Assembly: GCA_017520505.1 (NCBI GenBank)
Contig: JAFXFN010000011.1
Span: 1-64,000 of the forward strand
Direction: 5' to 3'
Origin: Clostridia bacterium
GTDB taxonomy: Bacteria; Bacillota; Clostridia; Oscillospirales; CAG-272
DNA: 64,000 bases
Positions within the stretch are counted from its first letter, which is position 1; the number at the start of each line of letters is the position of its first letter. The notes under the pieces were generated by a model. It had not been told where the DNA came from. It ran no database searches and saw only the letters and a list, made by a program, of their open reading frames with translations. A program made the translations under genes and the position numbers. This document shows, piece by piece, positions 3,709-12,732 of the stretch.

Positions 3709-5001
3709 TTAGGAAGCCTTTATAGCAATATCGGTCATAGATGTATTTGCTCTGTATGACCATACACCGAAGTAACCGTCTTTGTTGACTACTGCGGAGC
3801 CTGAATATACGATTCTGTTGTTATGATCTCTTACAACAGCCTGGTCGTATTCCTCACTCAAATGTATACTGCAGATCATATATCTGTTGCCGTCTGATGA
3901 GTCCATATAATACTTTATAACATCGCCTGCATCAACAACAACGAGCTTGTGAGCTGTGGAGAAATCCTCGGGGAGTGTAACGAATGACGGTCTGTAGTTC
4001 CAGGAATATCTGTCGCCGCCTCTGCCGAAGAACAACGATGCCTGCTTTGTTCCGTTGAAAGCAAGATAAATACCGCCGGGATCTCTTGCAGTCTTACGTT
4101 TGTCTGTGATTCTTACACCGACGAAGGAAGCCTCTGTAGGCTCTGTTGAGCCTGCGATCTCACTTGTTGATTTAAGGTTCAAATGGAATTCGTACTGGCT
4201 GTATTCTTTTCCGGGTTCGTATTTGTGGCTGAGAGCAAGTGTGCCTTCCTTTGATGGCTGTTCGAATATAACTGTGGAATTTTCTGCAATAACAGCCTTG
4301 TCTTCAGCCGGAGCTGTGTAAATATCAAGCATTGCGGGATTAGGCATCTTTGCGGGGTTAGGTCTGTAAGCACGTACAAAATTGCCTATCGGTTCAGTAA
4401 AGGGCTGAGGACCTTTTGTGCCGTTGATTCTCTCGTTTGAGCCGCCGTCATATCTTTGGTTCAAGCCTGCACACATAAATACGTGTCCGGGGTTACCCTT
4501 TGAGTCGGGGTTTACAAATACGATGTCGCCTGCTTTGACGTTTCTCGTGCTTTCGATAAGCTCAAAATCGTGCTCTTCGAAATATCTGTAAAGGTTAAGA
4601 CCGTGACGGTAATCCTGATCGATAAATCCTGCACGGAAAAGTATCCACGATACCATTCTGTCGCAAGCAACGATTCTTTCCTTGGAGTTTATTGCTTCCT
4701 TTACATTGAGTGTACGCCAGTTGATTGCGGGGTTTATTTCCGCATCGCCGTATATAAAGTTGTTGTCACGTATGAAGTCGGCGATGACCTTGCCCTCTGT
4801 CATAAGTCTTTCTACAAGCTCCTCGTATGTAGGGGGAGTCCACTCATCAACAACCGTATTATTTTCTTCGGTTGTAGGCGATGTTTCTTCTGTTGCAGTA
4901 TCTGTGCCTGACGGTGCGGTGGTGTCAGTATTGTTTCCTGCACAAGAAAACATTGACAGAGCACATATCAAGCAAAGCGTGCGTAATAATAATTTTTTCA
5001 T
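3709..5001 (-). CDS. Secreted lipoprotein with NlpC/P60- or CHAP-like domain, paralogue 1
   Basis: 430 residues. It has an N-terminal signal ending M-F-S-C with lipidated Cys20, then a Thr/Glu-rich linker to about residue 55. A papain-like domain covers about 57-215, with likely catalytic Cys113 in V-A-C-D-R-M-V-S-W and His173 in G-N-P-G-H-V-F-M-C-A-G. A C-terminal beta-rich, lectin/LamG-like domain covers about 250-430 and ends with F-G-V-W-S. AAAGGA lies 9 nt before the ATG. It is one of five tandem minus-strand paralogues, each with its own promoter and usually its own terminator. Substrate unknown; peptidoglycan or a surface peptide is plausible. The catalytic assignment rests on motif resemblance only. 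Confidence 0.75.
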   Translation of the reverse strand: MKKLLLRTLCLICALSMFSCAGNNTDTTAPSGTDTATEETSPTTEENNTVVDEWTPPTYEELVERLMTEGKVIADFIRDNNFIYGDAEINPAINWRTLNVKEAINSKERIVACDRMVSWILFRAGFIDQDYRHGLNLYRYFEEHDFELIESTRNVKAGDIVFVNPDSKGNPGHVFMCAGLNQRYDGGSNERINGTKGPQPFTEPIGNFVRAYRPNPAKMPNPAMLDIYTAPAEDKAVIAENSTVIFEQPSKEGTLALSHKYEPGKEYSQYEFHLNLKSTSEIAGSTEPTEASFVGVRITDKRKTARDPGGIYLAFNGTKQASLFFGRGGDRYSWNYRPSFVTLPEDFSTAHKLVVVDAGDVIKYYMDSSDGNRYMICSIHLSEEYDQAVVRDHNNRIVYSGSAVVNKDGYFGVWSYRANTSMTDIAIKAS

Positions 5002-5044
5002 TATGTGTCATCCTTTGTGTTTTATTGGGTGATACCCTGAAAAA

Positions 5045-5073
5045 ATTATATACTATATAAAAAACTATGTCAA
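5045..5073 (-). promoter_or_regulatory. Promoter of paralogue 1
   Basis: On the minus strand, TTGACA (5073-5068), a 17-bp spacer, TATAAT (5050-5045). Confidence 0.8.
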
Positions 5074-5111
5074 TAACAATGTTTAAATAATTTTTAACAT
5101 AAGTGTATGTA

Positions 5112-5144
5112 AAAACGGTCACATCATTAAGATGTGACCGTTTT
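5112..5144 (-). terminator. Terminator of paralogue 2
   Basis: A perfect 14-bp stem (5112-5125 with 5131-5144), followed by a T run on the minus strand. Confidence 0.85.
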
Positions 5145-5150
5145 ATAAGC

Positions 5151-6434
5151 TTAAGAAGCCTTGAGTGCAATGTCGGTAGTGGTTGTATTTGCCTTGTATG
5201 ACCACACACCGAAATAGCCGTCGTCATTGACTATAGCGGAGCCTGAATAAACGATGTTTCCGTCGTGGTCACGAACGACCGCCTGGTCGTATTCCGCACT
5301 CAGACCGATTGAGCATATGAGATATTCTTCGCCATTTTTTAAATACATATAGCATTTGATGACGTCACCTGTATCAACAACAGCTATTTTGTGAGCTGAT
5401 GAGAAGTTTTCGGGAAGTGTGATGACAGAGGGGGTTTCATACCAGTTGTATCTGGCTTCATCGCGTCCGAAGTAAAGACCTGCTTTGTTTGTACCGTTGA
5501 GGGAAAGGAATATACCGCCTGCATCTCTTGCGTTCTTGCGCTTGCTCGGAAGTCTTATGCCTACAAATGATGCTTCGCTTATCTCATCAGAACCCGATTT
5601 TTCACTTGTCGATGTGAGTGACAAATGAAGCTCATACTGACTGTATTCTTTTCCGGGGGCATAAAGATGATCGATAGCAAGTGTGCCTTCTGTTTTGCCC
5701 TGCTCATATATTACGGTTGAATTCTGACTTACGGATGCAACATTATCCCCGGCAACATCGTAGATCTTCAGCATGGAGGGATTGGGCATTTTTGCGGGAT
5801 TCGGTCTGTAAGCATAAACGAAGTTGTTTACAGGCTCAGAAAACGGCTGAGAGCCTTTTAAGCCGTTGATTCTTTCGTTAGAGCCGCCGTCATATCTTTT
5901 GTTAGGGCCTGCGCACATAAATACGTGCAGGGGATTGCCGTTTGCATCGGGGTTAACGAAAACAAGGTCACCCGCCTGAAGAGATCTTGTGCTGTCTATT
6001 CTTTGAAAATCGTGTTCTTCAAAATATTTGATAAGATCGATTCCGTGACGGTAATCCTGATCGATAAATCCGCCTCTGAAAAGTATCCACGATACCATTC
6101 TGTCGCAAGCAACGATTCTTTCGTTGGTATCGATCGCTGTTTCAGGGTCGAGTGTGCGCCAGTTGATAGCGGGGTTTATCTGTGCATCGCCGTATACGAA
6201 GTGGTTTTCACGAATGAAATCAGCAATGACCTTGCCCTCGACCATAAGCTTTTCAACCATTTCCTCGTATGTAGGGGGAGTCCATTCGACAACGTTGGGG
6301 GATTCGGATTCCGTAACGGCATCTGTTTCGGTGCCGCTTACTTGTCCGTTTGTTGTATCTGCGTCGTTTCCTCCGCAGGAAAGCATAAAAACAGCGCACA
6401 GTAAGCAAAGCGCTCGCAATAATAATTTTTTCAT
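5151..6434 (-). CDS. Secreted lipoprotein with NlpC/P60- or CHAP-like domain, paralogue 2
   Basis: About 427 residues, closest to paralogue 1. The signal ends M-L-S-C-G-G. The Cys motif V-A-C-D-R-M-V-S-W and the His motif N-P-L-H-V-F-M-C-A-G are kept, as is the C-terminal beta domain with V-V-R-D-H-D-G and Y-F-G-V-W-S. I chose the second ATG (6434): it gives AAAGGA a 9-nt spacing, as in paralogue 1, while the ATG at 6440 would leave only 3 nt. The mobile element at 6534 lies just upstream of its promoter. Confidence 0.75.
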   Translation of the reverse strand: MKKLLLRALCLLCAVFMLSCGGNDADTTNGQVSGTETDAVTESESPNVVEWTPPTYEEMVEKLMVEGKVIADFIRENHFVYGDAQINPAINWRTLDPETAIDTNERIVACDRMVSWILFRGGFIDQDYRHGIDLIKYFEEHDFQRIDSTRSLQAGDLVFVNPDANGNPLHVFMCAGPNKRYDGGSNERINGLKGSQPFSEPVNNFVYAYRPNPAKMPNPSMLKIYDVAGDNVASVSQNSTVIYEQGKTEGTLAIDHLYAPGKEYSQYELHLSLTSTSEKSGSDEISEASFVGIRLPSKRKNARDAGGIFLSLNGTNKAGLYFGRDEARYNWYETPSVITLPENFSSAHKIAVVDTGDVIKCYMYLKNGEEYLICSIGLSAEYDQAVVRDHDGNIVYSGSAIVNDDGYFGVWSYKANTTTTDIALKAS

Positions 6435-6476
6435 TTGCATATATCCTTTATCTGAAATTTGGGGATACCCAAGAAG

Positions 6477-6506
6477 ATTATATACTACTTCATATCATTT
6501 TGTCAA
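6477..6506 (-). promoter_or_regulatory. Promoter of paralogue 2
   Basis: On the minus strand, TTGACA (6506-6501), an 18-bp spacer, TATAAT (6482-6477). The element's left inverted repeat begins 28 bp further upstream. Confidence 0.7.
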
Positions 6507-6843
6507 TAATAAATATTTAAATTTACCATATACAAAACGTGATGCCGAAAAGACTCCTTCTCATAAGGATGTTTACTCGCAGGGACGACCATTGTGTCGC
6601 CCCTGCAAACAAATTACGGCAGAGATGTTGTTTTCTCTGCCGATTTGTGTTATAATGGAATCGTAACGTAGGGCGGGGGCTTGCTCCCGTAATGAACGCC
6701 TTGAATCGAAAAAGGCGGCGGGAGTAACCCCCCGTCCTGCAAATGGGTATGGACTTTGCCCGACGTGTTTGTAAAACAAAGGCGAAACCGGCGATAAAAC
6801 AGAACGATAAATAAGAAGTTGGTGGAGGTTTTGATAAAAAGAA

Positions 6844-7548
6844 ATGAGTAGTACAATTAAACGAAATAGTGTATTGGCAGTGATACTTTTTATAGTGTAT
6901 TTGAGCCAAAATATATTAAGAAATATTTTTGTGAATATGCTTGCGATTAATGAGCTTATTGCTACGTTGATTACGGTTATGGTTTTTGGTGCTTTAGCAA
7001 TATTTCTTGTAAAAAAAGATAACTATTTTAAAGTTAGATGTACAAGTAAAACGTGCATTACATATATTATTATTGTTACTTTGATATTGAGTGTTATTAA
7101 CCTTTTTCCATTCGATTTATCAATCGGAATAACAACATTATCTGTTTTATTCACGATGCTTTTCGTTGGATTAATAGAAGAACTTATCTTTAGAGGTTGT
7201 ATATATAAAATATGCGACGAAAAATGGGGTGACCAAAAGGCTGTTATACTTAGTAGTGTTCTATTTGGGCTTATACATATAATTAATGTCTTGAATGACG
7301 ATATATTAATGGTAGTGCTACAAATGGTATATGCAACCTGCATAGGTATTGTTTATGCTATGTTGATGTACAAAAAGCAAGGGATAATCTTATGCATTCT
7401 AGCCCATGCAATTATTAATATTGCTGGAAATCTTGGTGCGATAGAAACAGTATGTAAAGAAATTATCTTCACTATTATTTGTGTTGCGTTTGCAATTATA
7501 ATGATTTTTAGGTTTGATTTATTAAAAAAAGCAAATAGGAATTTCTAG
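6844..7548 (+). CDS. CPBP-family intramembrane glutamic protease
   Basis: 234 residues with about seven or eight hydrophobic segments. The catalytic motifs of the CPBP (Abi/Rce1-like) family are present: E-E-L-I-F-R-G near residue 115, F-G-L-I-H-I-I-N near 140 and the final H-A-I-I-N near 183. Relatives process bacteriocins or confer immunity to them, and some cleave prenylated proteins; the substrate here is unknown. GGTGGAGG lies upstream of the ATG. The gene is AT-rich and Ile-rich compared with its neighbours, and is enclosed by inverted repeats, so it is probably acquired cargo. Confidence 0.85.
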   Translation: MSSTIKRNSVLAVILFIVYLSQNILRNIFVNMLAINELIATLITVMVFGALAIFLVKKDNYFKVRCTSKTCITYIIIVTLILSVINLFPFDLSIGITTLSVLFTMLFVGLIEELIFRGCIYKICDEKWGDQKAVILSSVLFGLIHIINVLNDDILMVVLQMVYATCIGIVYAMLMYKKQGIILCILAHAIINIAGNLGAIETVCKEIIFTIICVAFAIIMIFRFDLLKKANRNF

Positions 7549-7614
7549 TGTTGTAAGCGTAAAATTTCAGTTTGGCTGTTAGACCAATTCCAATTTGTCT
7601 AACTGAATGAATTA

Positions 7615-7655
7615 ACCCCGGCAGATTTTGAAAAATCTGCCAGGGTTATCTCTTT
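7615..7655 (+). terminator. Terminator of the CPBP gene
   Basis: AACCC plus CGGCAGATTTT pairs with AAAATCTGCC plus GGGTT (one bulged A) at about 7614-7647, followed by T-rich ATCTCTTTGTTTT. Confidence 0.7.
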
Positions 7656-7776
7656 GTTTTCTGCGGATCAATTTTGTGTTTTAACGGGTCGCCGAGAATG
7701 TCCGCCCCCTTACAAGAAATATTCAAACTTCCTTATGAGAAGGAGCCTTTTCGGCATCACGTTTTAAATTTACAGC

Positions 7777-9222
7777 TTAAGTTGCTTTCTTTATCGAAAT
7801 ACTCGTTTGGTTTGTATTTGTGTAATATTCCCAAGTGCTGAAATATCCTACAGATTCGTATGTACCTCGTCCTGAGTAAATAAACTTGTTGTTATGGTCA
7901 CGCACCGATATTATATCGTACTCTGTGTTGATGTTTATACTGCATATCAGATACTCAACGCCCGCTGACGTGTACATAAAATATTTTATCGTATTACCCG
8001 AGTCGACAACGACTATCTTGTGAAGTGAAGCGAATGATTCGGGAAGTGCGATCTGTGCAAGAGGCTTGTACCAAAGCAAGCCTTCGCCGTGGTTTTCTTC
8101 CGAACATCCTATACCTGTGTAAAGATATGCGTACGGTTCATTACGGAATCCGAGCCAAAGGCCGCCGTATTCTGTAGGCGAATGTCCTGCCTTGGGGAGA
8201 CGTGCGCCGACATACAGACAGTTTCCTGCGTTCAGTGAATCTGCTGTTGCGGAAGCGTTCAAATGGAATTCATACTGTGCATTGAAGGGGTTGTATCTGT
8301 AGTTTGCCGCAATGTTTCCGTTGCTGTTTGCAGTTGTGTAAACTGTTGTTGTTGAAGCGGCGGGACGTGCAATGTTTGCTGTGGGTGTATTGTATATTTC
8401 CTTCAAAGAGGATTTGGGCAAGCCTGCGGGATTGGGACGCCAAGCGTACGTGAAGCTTGAAATTGCCTCGCGGAACGGCTCTGTTGTTCCGTTAACGTAG
8501 GAATATGCGCCTGTTCTCTGTATTCTTTCGACTGAACCGTGGTCATATCTGAGGTTTGTACCTGCGCAAATGAACTGATGCTCACCGTTGAGAACGAGAA
8601 CTATATCGCCGCGGCGTACATCGTTTACGTTTGTTATTTTTTCAAACTTGTATCTTGCGTAATCTGCGTCATTGAATCCGCCTCTGTAGAATCTCTGGTC
8701 TGTATAGCCTGCACGGTGATATGCCCAGCTTACAAGACGGTTACATGCAGAAGCTCTTTCGCCGTCGATCGTTTCGTTGATATTGAGATTCAGCCAGTTA
8801 TATGCGGGATTGAGCTGTGCATCACCGTATATAAAATTGTTATCATCTGTGAATTTAACTATCTTTGCTGCTTCTTCGATGATCTTTTCAACGAGCTGGC
8901 TGTATGTAGGAGCATTTTCATCGCTGGGGATCTCGCAATGCTCACCGTAATAATTACGGAGTGCGATTATGTCGGTTCTTGTAATAGAGCCGTCTCCGTT
9001 TACATCTACTTTTGCATCATAGGGGAAAAGTGCGGGCTTACGTATATATTTCATAATACGTACAGCATCCTTACCGTTAACTATGCCGTCACGGTTGACG
9101 TCGCAATCTGCTACCACAACAGCCGCAGACGTTCCGAAAAGATTCGGAAGCGATACTGCACCGACTATCATAAGCGCTGACAGACATATGCCGATGATCT
9201 TGAAAAATTTGCTGTTTTTCAT
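7777..9222 (-). CDS. Secreted dockerin protein with NlpC/P60- or CHAP-like domain, paralogue 3
   Basis: 481 residues. A Sec signal peptide (about 1-34, no lipobox Cys) is followed by a type I dockerin at about 39-93. The dockerin has two calcium loops, D-V-N-R-D-G-I-V-N-G-K-D and D-V-N-G-D-G-S-I-T-R-T-D. Next comes the papain-like domain with Cys160 (A-S-A-C-N-R-L-V-S-W) and His215 (G-E-H-Q-F-I-C-A-G), then the C-terminal beta domain. Dockerins bind cohesins, so this copy may join a scaffold or surface complex instead of being lipid-anchored. No cohesin is encoded in the window. The mobile element lies 12 bp beyond its stop and appears to have separated the gene from its terminator. Confidence 0.8.
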   Translation of the reverse strand: MKNSKFFKIIGICLSALMIVGAVSLPNLFGTSAAVVVADCDVNRDGIVNGKDAVRIMKYIRKPALFPYDAKVDVNGDGSITRTDIIALRNYYGEHCEIPSDENAPTYSQLVEKIIEEAAKIVKFTDDNNFIYGDAQLNPAYNWLNLNINETIDGERASACNRLVSWAYHRAGYTDQRFYRGGFNDADYARYKFEKITNVNDVRRGDIVLVLNGEHQFICAGTNLRYDHGSVERIQRTGAYSYVNGTTEPFREAISSFTYAWRPNPAGLPKSSLKEIYNTPTANIARPAASTTTVYTTANSNGNIAANYRYNPFNAQYEFHLNASATADSLNAGNCLYVGARLPKAGHSPTEYGGLWLGFRNEPYAYLYTGIGCSEENHGEGLLWYKPLAQIALPESFASLHKIVVVDSGNTIKYFMYTSAGVEYLICSININTEYDIISVRDHNNKFIYSGRGTYESVGYFSTWEYYTNTNQTSISIKKAT

Positions 9223-9327
9223 TTTAGTGATTCCTCGCTTTTGTACTGATTAGATCGTTTGCACTATGTAAATGTTCGGAAATACCGATATATTTCCTTG
9301 CAAATATATGCAATAACACCTCTTTAC

Positions 9328-9356
9328 AGTATACACATCAAAGCTTGTTTTGTCAA
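9328..9356 (-). promoter_or_regulatory. Promoter of paralogue 3
   Basis: Minus-strand TTGACA (9356-9351), 17-bp spacer, TATACT (9333-9328). Confidence 0.8.
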
Positions 9357-9439
9357 CACTATTTAATGTAATAAATATTATTTAATATTTTTTTGTGCTT
9401 TTTGCATAATAATTGTACGGTGTATATGTTGATAAATAC

Positions 9440-9470
9440 AACAAAGGTCGGTGCTGTACCGACCTTTGTT
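9440..9470. terminator. Terminator hairpin
   Basis: AACAAAGGTCGGT pairs with ACCGACCTTTGTT. It is nearly the same stem as at 11215, so the terminator was probably copied with the paralogues. It follows the gene fragment at 9499. Confidence 0.75.
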
Positions 9471-9498
9471 AAAAGCTATCAAGTTATATTATGATTAT

Positions 9499-9800
9499 TT
9501 ACCGAAAATATCTCCAAGATCGATGGTATCATCGCCAATGTCTATATTTCCGTTGTTATTGTCATGCTCTGCCTTTGCTTCGTTGTACCATTCTATGAAT
9601 TTGCCAAGTGACGGGAAGTTTTTGATAAACTCCGTCTGTTCATCGGGTGTCATATTTATGTAGTCTTCATAAGTATATTGGCTTGCATCAAATTCATCGG
9701 GAACAGTATTCGGGGCGGTTGTTTCTTCCGGTTCTGTTTCGGGCGGCTCTACTTCAATTACAGGGTCATCGAGTGTTTCACATTTCCTCGATTTACAAAA
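9499..9800 (-). pseudogene. 3' fragment of an unidentified acidic surface protein
   Basis: An open minus-strand frame ends at TAA (9501-9499). It encodes a Pro/Glu/Thr-rich stretch (E-V-E-P-P-E-T-E-P-E-E) followed by Y-T-Y-E-D-Y-I-N-M-T-P-D-E-Q and a terminal D-L-G-D-I-F-G-K. No start codon with a ribosome binding site exists upstream before the frame runs into the end of paralogue 4. It looks like the C-terminal remnant of a secreted or lipoprotein gene whose 5' part was replaced during array expansion. Family not recognised. Confidence 0.45.
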
Positions 9801-9811
9801 AATATAACAAA

Positions 9812-11101
9812 TTATTTTGCCTTTATTGCAATGTCAGAGGTTATTGTCTTTGCTCCGTGTGACCACACGCCGAAATATCCGGAATCGTTTACAACAGCTG
9901 TGCCTGCGTATATGATATTGTTGTCGCTGTTGCGCACTACGATCTGATCATATTCAGCGCTGACACGTATCGTGCATATCAGTATTTCCTCACCCAAGGC
10001 CGTATACATATAATATTTAATAACGTCGCCCGTGTCTACAACGACTATTTTGTGTGCCGTTTTGAAATTTTCGGGTAATTTGACAGATGCAACAGGCTCG
10101 TTCCATATCTTCGCCTTTGCACCGCATCCGACGTACAGGCAAGCCTCATTTTCACCTCTCAAAGCGATAAATATACCGCCGGGTTCTGTTGCGTTTTTGC
10201 GTCTTTCCGGAAGTCTTGCCCCTACGAATGATGCCTTCCACGGACTGTCGTCATTGACCTCTGAATACGACGTGAGATTCAAATGGAATTCGTACTGTCC
10301 GTATTCTTTTCCCGGCTCATACGATTTTGATATCGTCAGCGTTCCGTCCTTTTCTCCGCTTTCAAAAATGTTTGTCGCATTTTCAGATATTTTTGCAGAG
10401 CTTTCGTCGGCAGGCTCATATATTTCAAGCATTGACGGGTGGGGCATAAAATCGGGGGAAGGTCTGTAAGCACGAACGAAATTGTTTACAGGCTCGTTGA
10501 ACGGCTGAGGACCTTTCGAGCCGTTTATTCTCGCATCGCTTCCGCCGTCATATCTCAAATTCTTTCCCGCACAGATAAATACGTGACCGGGAACACCGTT
10601 TGCATCGGGATTGACGAAAACGATATCTCCTGCCTGAAGATCATTTACCGAGCGTACCTTTTGAAATCCGTGTTCGTTGAAATAATCCTCAAGATTTATA
10701 CCGAAATAGTAATCCTGATCGATAAATCCCGAACGGAACATTACCCAGTTTACAAGTCTGTCGCAGGCGACTATTCTTTCTTCGGGCTTTATTGCATCCT
10801 TCGGGTCAAGCGTGCGCCAGTTGACAGCGGGGTTGATTATTGCGTGTCCGTATATAAAATCGTTGTCACGTATAAAGTCCGCAACTATCTTACCTTCACG
10901 CATCATTATTTCAACAAGCTCCTCATACGTCGGACGCTTCCACTCGGCAACGTCATTGTTATCGGAGGCGGCAGTATCTTGTGCGGTTTCAGCAGATGCT
11001 GTATCGCTTTCCGGGGCAGATGTTTCCGTTTGATTGCCCATGCACGAAAAAAGAGACATTGCACATAGCAGGCAAACGCATTTTAGTATGATTTTTTTCA
11101 T
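9812..11101 (-). CDS. Secreted lipoprotein with NlpC/P60- or CHAP-like domain, paralogue 4
   Basis: 429 residues. The signal ends L-F-S-C-M-G and an Asp/Ser/Ala/Thr-rich linker follows. The Cys motif is V-A-C-D-R-L-V-N-W and the His motif V-P-G-H-V-F-I-C-A-G. The C-terminal beta domain ends with Y-F-G-V-W-S-H. AAAGGA sits 9 nt before the ATG. It belongs to the lipoprotein subset with paralogues 1 and 2, although it lies between the two dockerin copies. That placement suggests block duplication of a lipoprotein-plus-dockerin pair. Confidence 0.75.
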   Translation of the reverse strand: MKKIILKCVCLLCAMSLFSCMGNQTETSAPESDTASAETAQDTAASDNNDVAEWKRPTYEELVEIMMREGKIVADFIRDNDFIYGHAIINPAVNWRTLDPKDAIKPEERIVACDRLVNWVMFRSGFIDQDYYFGINLEDYFNEHGFQKVRSVNDLQAGDIVFVNPDANGVPGHVFICAGKNLRYDGGSDARINGSKGPQPFNEPVNNFVRAYRPSPDFMPHPSMLEIYEPADESSAKISENATNIFESGEKDGTLTISKSYEPGKEYGQYEFHLNLTSYSEVNDDSPWKASFVGARLPERRKNATEPGGIFIALRGENEACLYVGCGAKAKIWNEPVASVKLPENFKTAHKIVVVDTGDVIKYYMYTALGEEILICTIRVSAEYDQIVVRNSDNNIIYAGTAVVNDSGYFGVWSHGAKTITSDIAIKAK

Positions 11102-11141
11102 AAATACAAGTCCTTTGTGATATTTTGATTTATTTTATATA

Positions 11142-11170
11142 AGTATACACTTAAATTGTCATTTTGTCAA
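11142..11170 (-). promoter_or_regulatory. Promoter of paralogue 4
   Basis: Minus-strand TTGACA (11170-11165), 17-bp spacer, TATACT (11147-11142). Confidence 0.8.
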
Positions 11171-11207
11171 TATGTGCAATATTGCTTGATGTATCCGTAT
11201 TTTATTC

Positions 11208-11240
11208 AAAAAATAAAGGTCGGCGTTACCGCCGACCTTT
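11208..11240 (-). terminator. Terminator of paralogue 5
   Basis: AAAGGTCGGCG (11215-11225) pairs with CGCCGACCTTT (11230-11240); the minus strand continues ATTTTTTG. Confidence 0.85.
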
Positions 11241-11244
11241 GACG

Positions 11245-12732
11245 TTATTTTTTAGCACACTGTATGGATATATTGGACTGGGTTGAATTCGAAAGGTGAG
11301 TCCATACTCCGAAGTATCCCGTATGTCCTATATCGGTAATACCGGAATACAGGAAGTTTCCTGAGTTATCACGTATGCAGATCATATTATAATCGGGATT
11401 TACCCGTATACTGCATATCAGGTAGGTATCTCCCGGATTATGCGTCACCATATAGTATTTGATGACGTCACCCGTATCTACGACCATTAGCTTATGCTCA
11501 GATGCAAGTGATTCCGGAACACGTGTCGAAGCAAGCGGCTCGAACCAATCGTTACCGTATCCTCTGTTGCTCTTTGAACAGCCTGTGCCTGTGTAGAAGT
11601 ATACGTAACCGTCATCACGCAAAGCTACCCAGATACCGCCTCTGTTTGTGGGGTTCTGATTGGGATAAGGCAAACGAACGCCGACGTATGTTGAGCTTGA
11701 CGGGCTGCGGTCGCTTGACGAGGGTGAGGATGAGATATTCATATGCAATTCATAGTTTGCATTGTAGGGGTTGTAAGCAAAGTTGAACTGTCTTGAGCCG
11801 GAACCGTTAGCTGCTGTGTAAACAGTATCGGTGCTCGGTGAAGGACGTGCGATGTTTGCCGAGGGAGTTTTATAAATATTTGCAACCGATGTTGCGGGAA
11901 GTCCTTCTGGATTGGGACGCCATGCGTAAGAGAAGTCACTTATAGGCTCGCTGAAGGGCTTATCCGTGTTATCTACGTATGCAAATGCACCTATACGCTG
12001 AATACGTTCAACGCTTCCGTGGTCATATCTGAGGTTGGGACCTGCGCAGATAAACTGGTGAAGCGTGTTGTTTACAAGAACTATATCGCCGGCTCTTACA
12101 TCGTTGACGTTTGTTATCTTCGTGAACTTATATCTTGCGTAATCTTCATCGTTGAATCCGCCGTAGTAGAATCTCTGGTCTGTGTATCCTGCACGGTGGT
12201 AAGCCCAGCTTACAAGACGGTTGCAGGCTGAACGTGTACCTGTTACAAATGACTTGTCAAGTCCTTTGTCATAATCGAGATCAAGCCAGTTGTACGCAGG
12301 GTTGATCGTCGGGTCACCGTAATTGAATCCGAGGTTGTTGGTAAATACAGTGATCTTTTTAGCTTCTTCAAGTATCTTTGCAACGAGCTGATCGTATGTA
12401 GGTCTCGGCTGTTCTACTTCGATCACACGGTCGGGGATTATTTCGCACGTCTGACCGTAATATGAACGTATTGCCGTAATGTCATCGGAGTTGATCGCTC
12501 CGTCGCCGTTTACGTCAGCCTTGTCGGGAAAATAATAATCATTTGTGTGAATGTATTTCATTACACGGATAATGTCCTTACCGTTAATGATACCGTCGCG
12601 GTTAACGTCACAGTCGGTAACTTCTACGGCTGCCGAAACACCGAAAAGATTCGGTATTGTGACCGCACCGAAAATGAGCACCGCAGAAAGGCAAAGACCG
12701 ATTGCCTTATAAAGTCTGCTGTTGTTTTTCAT
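11245..12732 (-). CDS. Secreted dockerin protein with NlpC/P60- or CHAP-like domain, paralogue 5
   Basis: 495 residues, architecture as in paralogue 3. It has a Sec signal peptide and a type I dockerin with loops D-V-N-R-D-G-I-I-N-G-K-D and D-V-N-G-D-G-A-I-N-S-D-D. The papain-like domain has R-S-A-C-N-R-L-V-S-W and a His in L-H-Q-F-I-C-A-G. A Ser-rich insertion (S-S-P-S-S-S-D-R-S) lies inside the C-terminal beta domain. It is the first gene of the array in transcription direction. AAAGGA lies 10 nt before the ATG. Confidence 0.8.
   Translation of the reverse strand: MKNNSRLYKAIGLCLSAVLIFGAVTIPNLFGVSAAVEVTDCDVNRDGIINGKDIIRVMKYIHTNDYYFPDKADVNGDGAINSDDITAIRSYYGQTCEIIPDRVIEVEQPRPTYDQLVAKILEEAKKITVFTNNLGFNYGDPTINPAYNWLDLDYDKGLDKSFVTGTRSACNRLVSWAYHRAGYTDQRFYYGGFNDEDYARYKFTKITNVNDVRAGDIVLVNNTLHQFICAGPNLRYDHGSVERIQRIGAFAYVDNTDKPFSEPISDFSYAWRPNPEGLPATSVANIYKTPSANIARPSPSTDTVYTAANGSGSRQFNFAYNPYNANYELHMNISSSPSSSDRSPSSSTYVGVRLPYPNQNPTNRGGIWVALRDDGYVYFYTGTGCSKSNRGYGNDWFEPLASTRVPESLASEHKLMVVDTGDVIKYYMVTHNPGDTYLICSIRVNPDYNMICIRDNSGNFLYSGITDIGHTGYFGVWTHLSNSTQSNISIQCAKK

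Follow-up and report, generated by a model that had tools for sequence, protein, structure and literature searches.

In mobile insertion cassettes, a passenger gene lies between the ends of an insertion sequence (IS) and a transposase is lacking. Integron gene cassettes are compact single genes of very varied and often unassigned function that lie between constant parts. To our knowledge, long inverted repeats are atypical of IS200/IS605 elements, which insert beside a fixed short sequence. Here we analyze an element at positions 6534-7765 of a stretch of 64,000 nucleotides from a Clostridia bacterium (assembly GCA_017520505.1, contig JAFXFN010000011.1; the whole stretch is called the window below), in which a single gene for a CPBP membrane protease is enclosed by inverted repeats. 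The window copy belongs to a large family of mobile cassettes, small and with one gene each, that reside in terminator loops of uncultured gut Clostridia. The family has modular junctions and changing cargo, its members split terminators that are intact at empty sites in sister genomes, and one unit is common to two genera. Mobility and target are well supported, and we infer that the mover is a REP-associated tyrosine transposase (RAYT). The window copy is thus likely to be a non-autonomous member of RAYT-type (HUH, single-tyrosine) transposons that carries one interchangeable passenger and has inserted into a terminator loop.

With mobile insertion cassettes, the window copy has in common inverted ends that are shared with autonomous elements, one passenger, and no transposase; it departs from them in having a terminator loop as its target and, presumably, an HUH/RAYT enzyme as its helper. 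Integron cassettes are likewise compact, varied single genes between constant parts, whereas the members of this family have their own promoter and terminator and occur as single dispersed copies. RAYT genes between long terminal inverted repeats (TIRs) have been described as TIRtrons or TIRYT (PMC3733652). The accessible part of that publication resembles our results in that a RAYT-type transposase lies between inverted repeats and the repeats also occur without it; it differs in that passenger genes, terminator-loop insertion and module swapping are not described and the word "terminator" is absent. In our family, a RAYT with HUH and tyrosine regions lies inside the element in 20 of 99 loci, the window copy not being among them, and long terminal inverted repeats are present, with mixed end types in some copies. 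As far as the accessible parts of PMC6006769 and PMC8266576 go, REPtrons and REPINs share with the family the RAYT and the GTAG palindromes, which many copies here carry close to their ends, while a RAYT and cargo unit present in two genera, at sites empty in sister genomes, sets the family apart. IS200/IS605 elements belong to the same superfamily of HUH single-tyrosine transposases and have folded ends (PMC6006769, accessible part), in contrast to which our family has inverted repeats, a passenger gene and a terminator hairpin as the common target feature. Searches of the open-access literature in PubMed Central revealed no publication on RAYT elements that carry passenger genes or that insert into terminator loops.

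The element recurs with different genes

The inverted arms of the window copy (6534-6574 and 7725-7765) are 41 nt long, 95% complementary, and separated by 1150 nt. Their longest exact inverted arm comprises 19 nt, compared to at most 14 nt in 200 shuffles of window positions 6000-8500. The 36-bp terminal repeats with one mismatch that a preliminary description of the window had reported are therefore real, but they are not one repeat: the outer 19 nt are arms of a host terminator, and the inner 22 nt are the ends of the element. An open reading frame (ORF) between the arms (6844-7548) encodes a protein of 234 aa with a match to the Pfam family Rce1-like/CPBP (PF02517, E 1.4e-21). The G+C content is about 0.29-0.30 across this gene and about 0.44-0.49 across the neighboring genes. 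Inverted-repeat and fold analyses confirmed the internal hairpins, and no transposase gene was present among the ORFs inside the element, in agreement with the earlier picture of an AT-rich CPBP gene enclosed together with hairpins.

With the window element as query, 24 matches were found in its own genome, itself included, and they clustered as a left box before a gene and a right box after it. In this source genome, the same boxes enclosed a 112-aa protein (locus L011), an HTH-membrane protein (L012), a 149-aa protein (L014) and a lipoprotein (L016). The recurring parts were a promoter hairpin, a leader ending in ..GGCGATAAA, and a terminator with ..CCCCGACAG.., with different genes in between. 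A model of the leader (R1), which has no base pairs and supports the leader as sequence only, matched 11 places of the source genome, and a model of the trailer (R2) matched 20, part of which were counted on both strands, as R2 is nearly palindromic. The leader was present in 52 of 196 genomes, the own genome included (E 1e-4), and a single genome had as many as 16 copies. An exact 38-nt leader pattern occurred in 28 stretches of GTDB contigs, all of them metagenome-assembled genomes titled Clostridia or Oscillospiraceae, and where the titles named a source, it was the ruminant hindgut. The same pattern had zero matches in viral contigs.

We inspected 99 loci, 10 from the source genome and 89 from the leader listing (29 from the search output and 60 fetched). 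The order leader, one ORF, trailer was found in 72 of them, with spans of 213-1263 bp. Among the 27 trailer-less loci, 15 run to the contig end within 600 bp past the leader, and 12 have at least 800 bp and still no trailer. The cargo proteins have 67-291 aa (median 156.5), and the cargo fills a median of 97% of the interval between leader and trailer. At the 5' side the junction is sharp, ..CAAAGGCGAAACTGGCGATAAA being followed by the ribosome-binding site and the start; at the 3' side, the stop is followed by a few to some tens of nucleotides and then by ACCCCGACAG, the terminator stem. The upstream hairpin of the family loci holds TTGTTT-17-TATAAT. The 77 non-redundant cargo proteins fell into 49 Pfam families (E 1e-3), including GNAT acetyltransferases (up to 9 members per model), HTH proteins (5), and the singletons GrpB, S51 peptidase, SUKH, LCM, DUF4279, DUF4288, DUF4299, DUF4304 and the CPBP protein of the window. 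We do not claim a defence role for the cargo; the PADLOC matches were mostly to HTH-type models, as judged by the model names. The CPBP gene is not conserved at its site in relatives: the best match of its protein in other genomes had 34% identity, and a genome of the same genus contained none at E 1e-15. The proposal of a non-autonomous mobile element was thus upheld by copies with different cargo in the source genome and in relatives.

A common sub-form, to which the window copy belongs, has an inner inverted repeat (CGATAAATAAGAATTTG / CAAATTCCAATTTATCG) around the cargo. A nested second transposon, made up of this repeat with flanking AACAGAA, was rejected as a general explanation, since the inner repeat is missing from many copies, in which the cargo is joined directly to GGCGATAAA; it is a possible origin of one lineage. 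Of 20 loci scanned, 4 have a match to the Rfam family Gut-1 RNA (RF01706) above its gathering score within their 5' module (L016:1776-1846, L072:1278-1354, L124:2709-2780 and L135:2714-2783), and this orphan "sRNA" may be part of a mobile element.

Ends, split terminators and module exchange

Both end motifs could be located in 49 of the 72 elements; 23 were left out, having no clear motif or too little flank. The full 24-nt end sequence of the window copy has no second site in the source genome with up to three mismatches, and to this extent the end sequence is found only here, as had been considered at the outset. Its shorter core TCCTTATGAGAA, in contrast, terminates L011, L012 and elements in relatives. 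Type A ends, to which it belongs, also border the RAYT-bearing elements L064, L138 and L145. Mixed ends, one of type A and one of type B, were observed in L016, L060, L072, L129 and L123, and from these elements it seems that ends are exchanged too. Near the ends, GTAG-tagged palindromes (GTAGGGGCGAACTGTGTTCGCCC and others) occur, for example in L060, L075 and L094. Outward GTAG palindromes were found at the right end in 23 of the 49 elements, at the left end in 11, and at both ends in 5. REPIN-type ends, with two inverted GTAG palindromes, were therefore rejected as a general feature; a strict scan did not find them in the window copy.

The left and right flanks of the same element pair with each other. 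An arm score of at least 12 was reached by 32 of 49 elements (the score of the window copy includes its end repeat), compared to 1.7% of 2352 pairs of flanks from different elements. The paired arms resemble intrinsic terminators, with an A-tract, a G+C stem and a T-tract, and their sequence varies by site, while their spacing to the end motif is mostly fixed, at about 9-10 nt for type A and 14-16 nt for type B. An ORF of at least 60 codons ends within 90 nt of the element on at least one side in 45 of 49 cases, and on both sides, in convergent orientation, in 30. No clear target site duplication was seen in the family, where the letters of end and loop are inseparable. A 7-nt candidate at L012, AAGCACG, was dropped: GCACGCTTT fits a type A right end (NNNNGCYTT), and the remainder belongs to the split hairpin.

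The window element lies between two paralogous genes, the second and third of an array. Its right arm is found 11-12 nt past the stop of the gene for paralogue 3 (7777-9222), much as an intact hairpin of the same type (5112-5144) stands beyond paralogue 2. Therefore, the element split a terminator. The preliminary description had the terminator of paralogue 3 replaced, whereas its arms are both still there, at 6534-6552 and 7747-7765.

For an empty-site check, 14 joined flanks were compared with ten sister genomes, and intact terminators were found at 6 of the 14 sites, three of them with both flanks. At L086, a 965-bp insert is missing in genome G114, where both flanks aligned and the hairpin reads AAAAATCCTCCGC-ATGA-GCGGAGGATTTTTTT. 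The sites of L129 and L104 likewise had both flanks, but with gaps. An intact hairpin with one flank was found for L075 and L101 (left) and for L094 (right). The other eight flanks (L001, L016, L061, L138, L081, L082, L084 and L012) were uninformative or left aside. Empty sites, on which the preliminary description had set its hopes for the window insertion, thus exist for other members of the family. In a sister species, a cargo-less copy lies downstream of a lipoprotein paralogue (G001:C133); since its position is not provably orthologous, we rejected this copy as a candidate for the window insertion's empty site.

The elements L075 and L082, which come from different genera, have RAYT and cargo in common (95.1% over 1663 bp). 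Their homology ends 13-14 nt outside each end motif, adjoining different terminators. Equal 5' modules with unrelated cargo were found in the pairs L105/L125 (94%), L103/L127 (92%) and L104/L130 (88%), which diverge at positions +50 to +56 of the leader, i.e. at GGCGATAAA. Conversely, L016/L097, L108/L122, L121/L145 and L064/L127 have equal cargo with other 5' modules, and here the junction lies within 7 nt of the leader start. The shared leader is the hinge of the exchange, as would be expected if leader and trailer recombine by homology; because the leader is common to all copies, the breakpoints would fit a site-specific exchange equally well.

The RAYT slot and alternative explanations

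The slot between promoter and leader was occupied by a whole or cut RAYT gene in 20 of the 99 loci, by a DUF559 gene in 5, by an S23 four-helix gene in 1, and by the promoter hairpin alone in 61, with no call for 12. In 18 of the 20 RAYT loci, the RAYT ends 2-4 nt upstream of the leader, and whole RAYT frames start near the promoter hairpin and stop just 5' of the leader. The protein matched the E. coli TnpAREP structure (PDB 4er8) with E 5e-8, the alignment spanning the HUH and tyrosine regions. In addition to broken or partial copies, the source genome has RAYT genes with open frames at C4:1993-2472 and C23:72009-72515; the copy at C23:72009 has promoter and trailer and zero cargo. The series thus runs from RAYT only, via RAYT with cargo, to cargo only (the window copy) and neither (L176). 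As a RAYT precedes the leader in 20 of 99 loci, the window copy is therefore a transposase-less derivative. The DUF559 genes, endonuclease-like and in part fragments, were seen in L090, L103, L127, L015 and L096. The S23 gene is that of L121; two relatives (S23/four-helix bundle, PF05635) lie in the window at 203-688 and 1859-2212.

The full element has the order end, promoter hairpin, RAYT, leader, cargo, terminator, end; of this plan, the window copy lacks the RAYT and retains promoter, leader, CPBP cargo, terminator and ends. The RAYT presumably acts on single-stranded DNA, which it would cut and join at the folded ends, and the target would be the loop of a terminator folded within single-stranded DNA. 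The window copy could be moved in trans by RAYTs elsewhere in the source genome, cargo in the family is presumably swapped via recombination in the common leader and trailer, and the CPBP membrane protease gene is probably expressed from the element's own promoter. For the role of this protease, self-immunity or the processing of surface proteins would be our guess.

Several observations weigh against this reading. The RAYT scored 62.8 bits with the NCBIfam model NF047646 (E 3e-17), under the cut-off of 80, and the Pfam model Y1_Tnp matched one of five RAYTs tested, weakly, and missed four. The higher frequency of RAYTs in leader-positive genomes (38 of 52, compared to 49 of 144 without the leader; Fisher p 1.5e-6) speaks for the RAYT, but this association is partly built in, as some leaders lie within RAYT elements, and at E 1e-6 RAYTs went undetected in 14 of the 52. 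The majority of the copies have the promoter hairpin only upstream, 17 of 49 elements scored below 12 for their arms, and many copies lie at contig ends, the genomes being draft assemblies. The empty site of the window insertion itself was not found; in G001, a genome of the same genus, the match was limited to the region upstream of a paralogue (G001:C133, query 48-181). Finally, the ends are true inverted repeats, which in their long form are atypical of IS200/IS605. This, the genomes in which RAYTs went undetected and the DUF559 and S23 genes in the same slot would also suit a different mover of the same terminator-splitting cassettes, one that works at their inverted ends and is either a DDE transposase or a site-specific recombinase, with the RAYT as just another 5'-slot passenger. 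We regard such a mover as quite unlikely: RAYT is by far the commonest slot protein, the RAYT copy without cargo exists with promoter and trailer, and RAYT genes between long TIRs have been published as TIRtrons (PMC3733652, accessible part), while in the loci read we noticed neither a further transposase nor a recombinase that recurs as cargo or in the slot, though none was sought systematically.

An integron-like capture, in which a dedicated enzyme inserts free cassettes between GGCGATAAA and the CCCCGACAG hairpin, would be compatible with a RAYT that moves the whole platform. The cargo is very varied and its junctions are sharp in many copies, with the ribosome-binding site near GGCGATAAA and the stop shortly before the hairpin. 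Each copy has one gene, however; circular cassettes or arrays were not seen and no attC-like site or attC array was noticed in the family loci (integrases were not searched for), and homologous swapping in leader and trailer accounts for the breakpoints without need for a second enzyme, so that we consider this capture unlikely. That the window copy is a fixed local feature, in which terminator halves and repeated hairpins came together fortuitously at a resident CPBP gene, as the uniqueness of the 24-nt end sequence in the source genome might suggest, is extremely improbable, being refuted by the recurrence with other cargo, the empty sites and the units common to different genera.

Layout of the window copy and implications

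The window copy of this RAYT-type family begins inside the terminator of paralogue 3, whose left arm (AAAACGTGATGCCGAAAAG, 6534-6552) is complementary to the right arm (7747-7765) according to the flank analysis; neither arm was assigned a strand. The left type A end (ACTCC-TTCTCATAAGGA-TGTTT, 6553-6574, plus strand), a motif that also terminates other family members, has its counterpart at 7725-7746 on the minus strand. Degenerate subterminal palindromes follow inward at 6579-6606 (plus strand) and 7686-7713 (minus strand); at the position of the former, which got no score in the strict palindrome scan, many relatives carry GTAG-tagged REP-like palindromes. All further parts are on the plus strand. 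The hairpin at 6608-6656 contains TTGTTT (6628-6633), a spacer of 17 nt and TATAAT (6651-6656), and its resemblance to the sigma-70 consensus suggests promoter function. An internal hairpin module (GTAGGGCGGGGGC..., 6668-6740) occupies the interval between promoter and leader, which is the place of the RAYT gene in autonomous relatives. The conserved 5' leader (6745-6825; R1 score 83.6 bits, E 4.6e-25) contains ..GGCGATAAAACAGAACGATAAATAAGAAGTTG, followed by the ribosome-binding site GGAGG, and overlaps the left inner inverted repeat (6805-6821) adjoining the cargo. The cargo gene (6844-7548) is followed by the right inner inverted repeat (7584-7599) and the conserved trailer (7586-7660; R2 score 82.8 bits, E 1.6e-14; fold z -3.9), which includes a terminator hairpin at 7616-7645. 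The surrounding array (3709-12732) encodes five related proteins, three lipoprotein-like ones of 430, 429 and 429 aa and two of a longer type with 481 and 495 aa, the 481-aa protein having a dockerin domain. One lipoprotein-type copy of these proteins is encoded on the sister-species contig G001:C133.

RAYTs have been described as domesticated and immobile as a unit, whereas here a genome can hold units of RAYT and cargo at sites where its sister has none. The occurrence of one such unit in two genera likewise contrasts with RAYTs as non-moving units. As targets, terminator loops are safe and abundant, and a transposon aimed at them would allow the targeting of single-stranded hairpins to be tested directly. 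Gut-1, an orphan RNA family located inside the 5' module of some copies, may also be explained in part by these elements. Tentatively, and with considerable doubt, the family can be seen as non-integron gene capture, in which a RAYT platform of gut Clostridia would take up promoterless genes at one point between leader and terminator, express them, and spread them via terminator loops among genera; if so, its target would be one that follows most operons and spares genes. Small genes, of varied or unassigned function, appear to use the cassettes as a route of spread among uncultured gut Clostridia.
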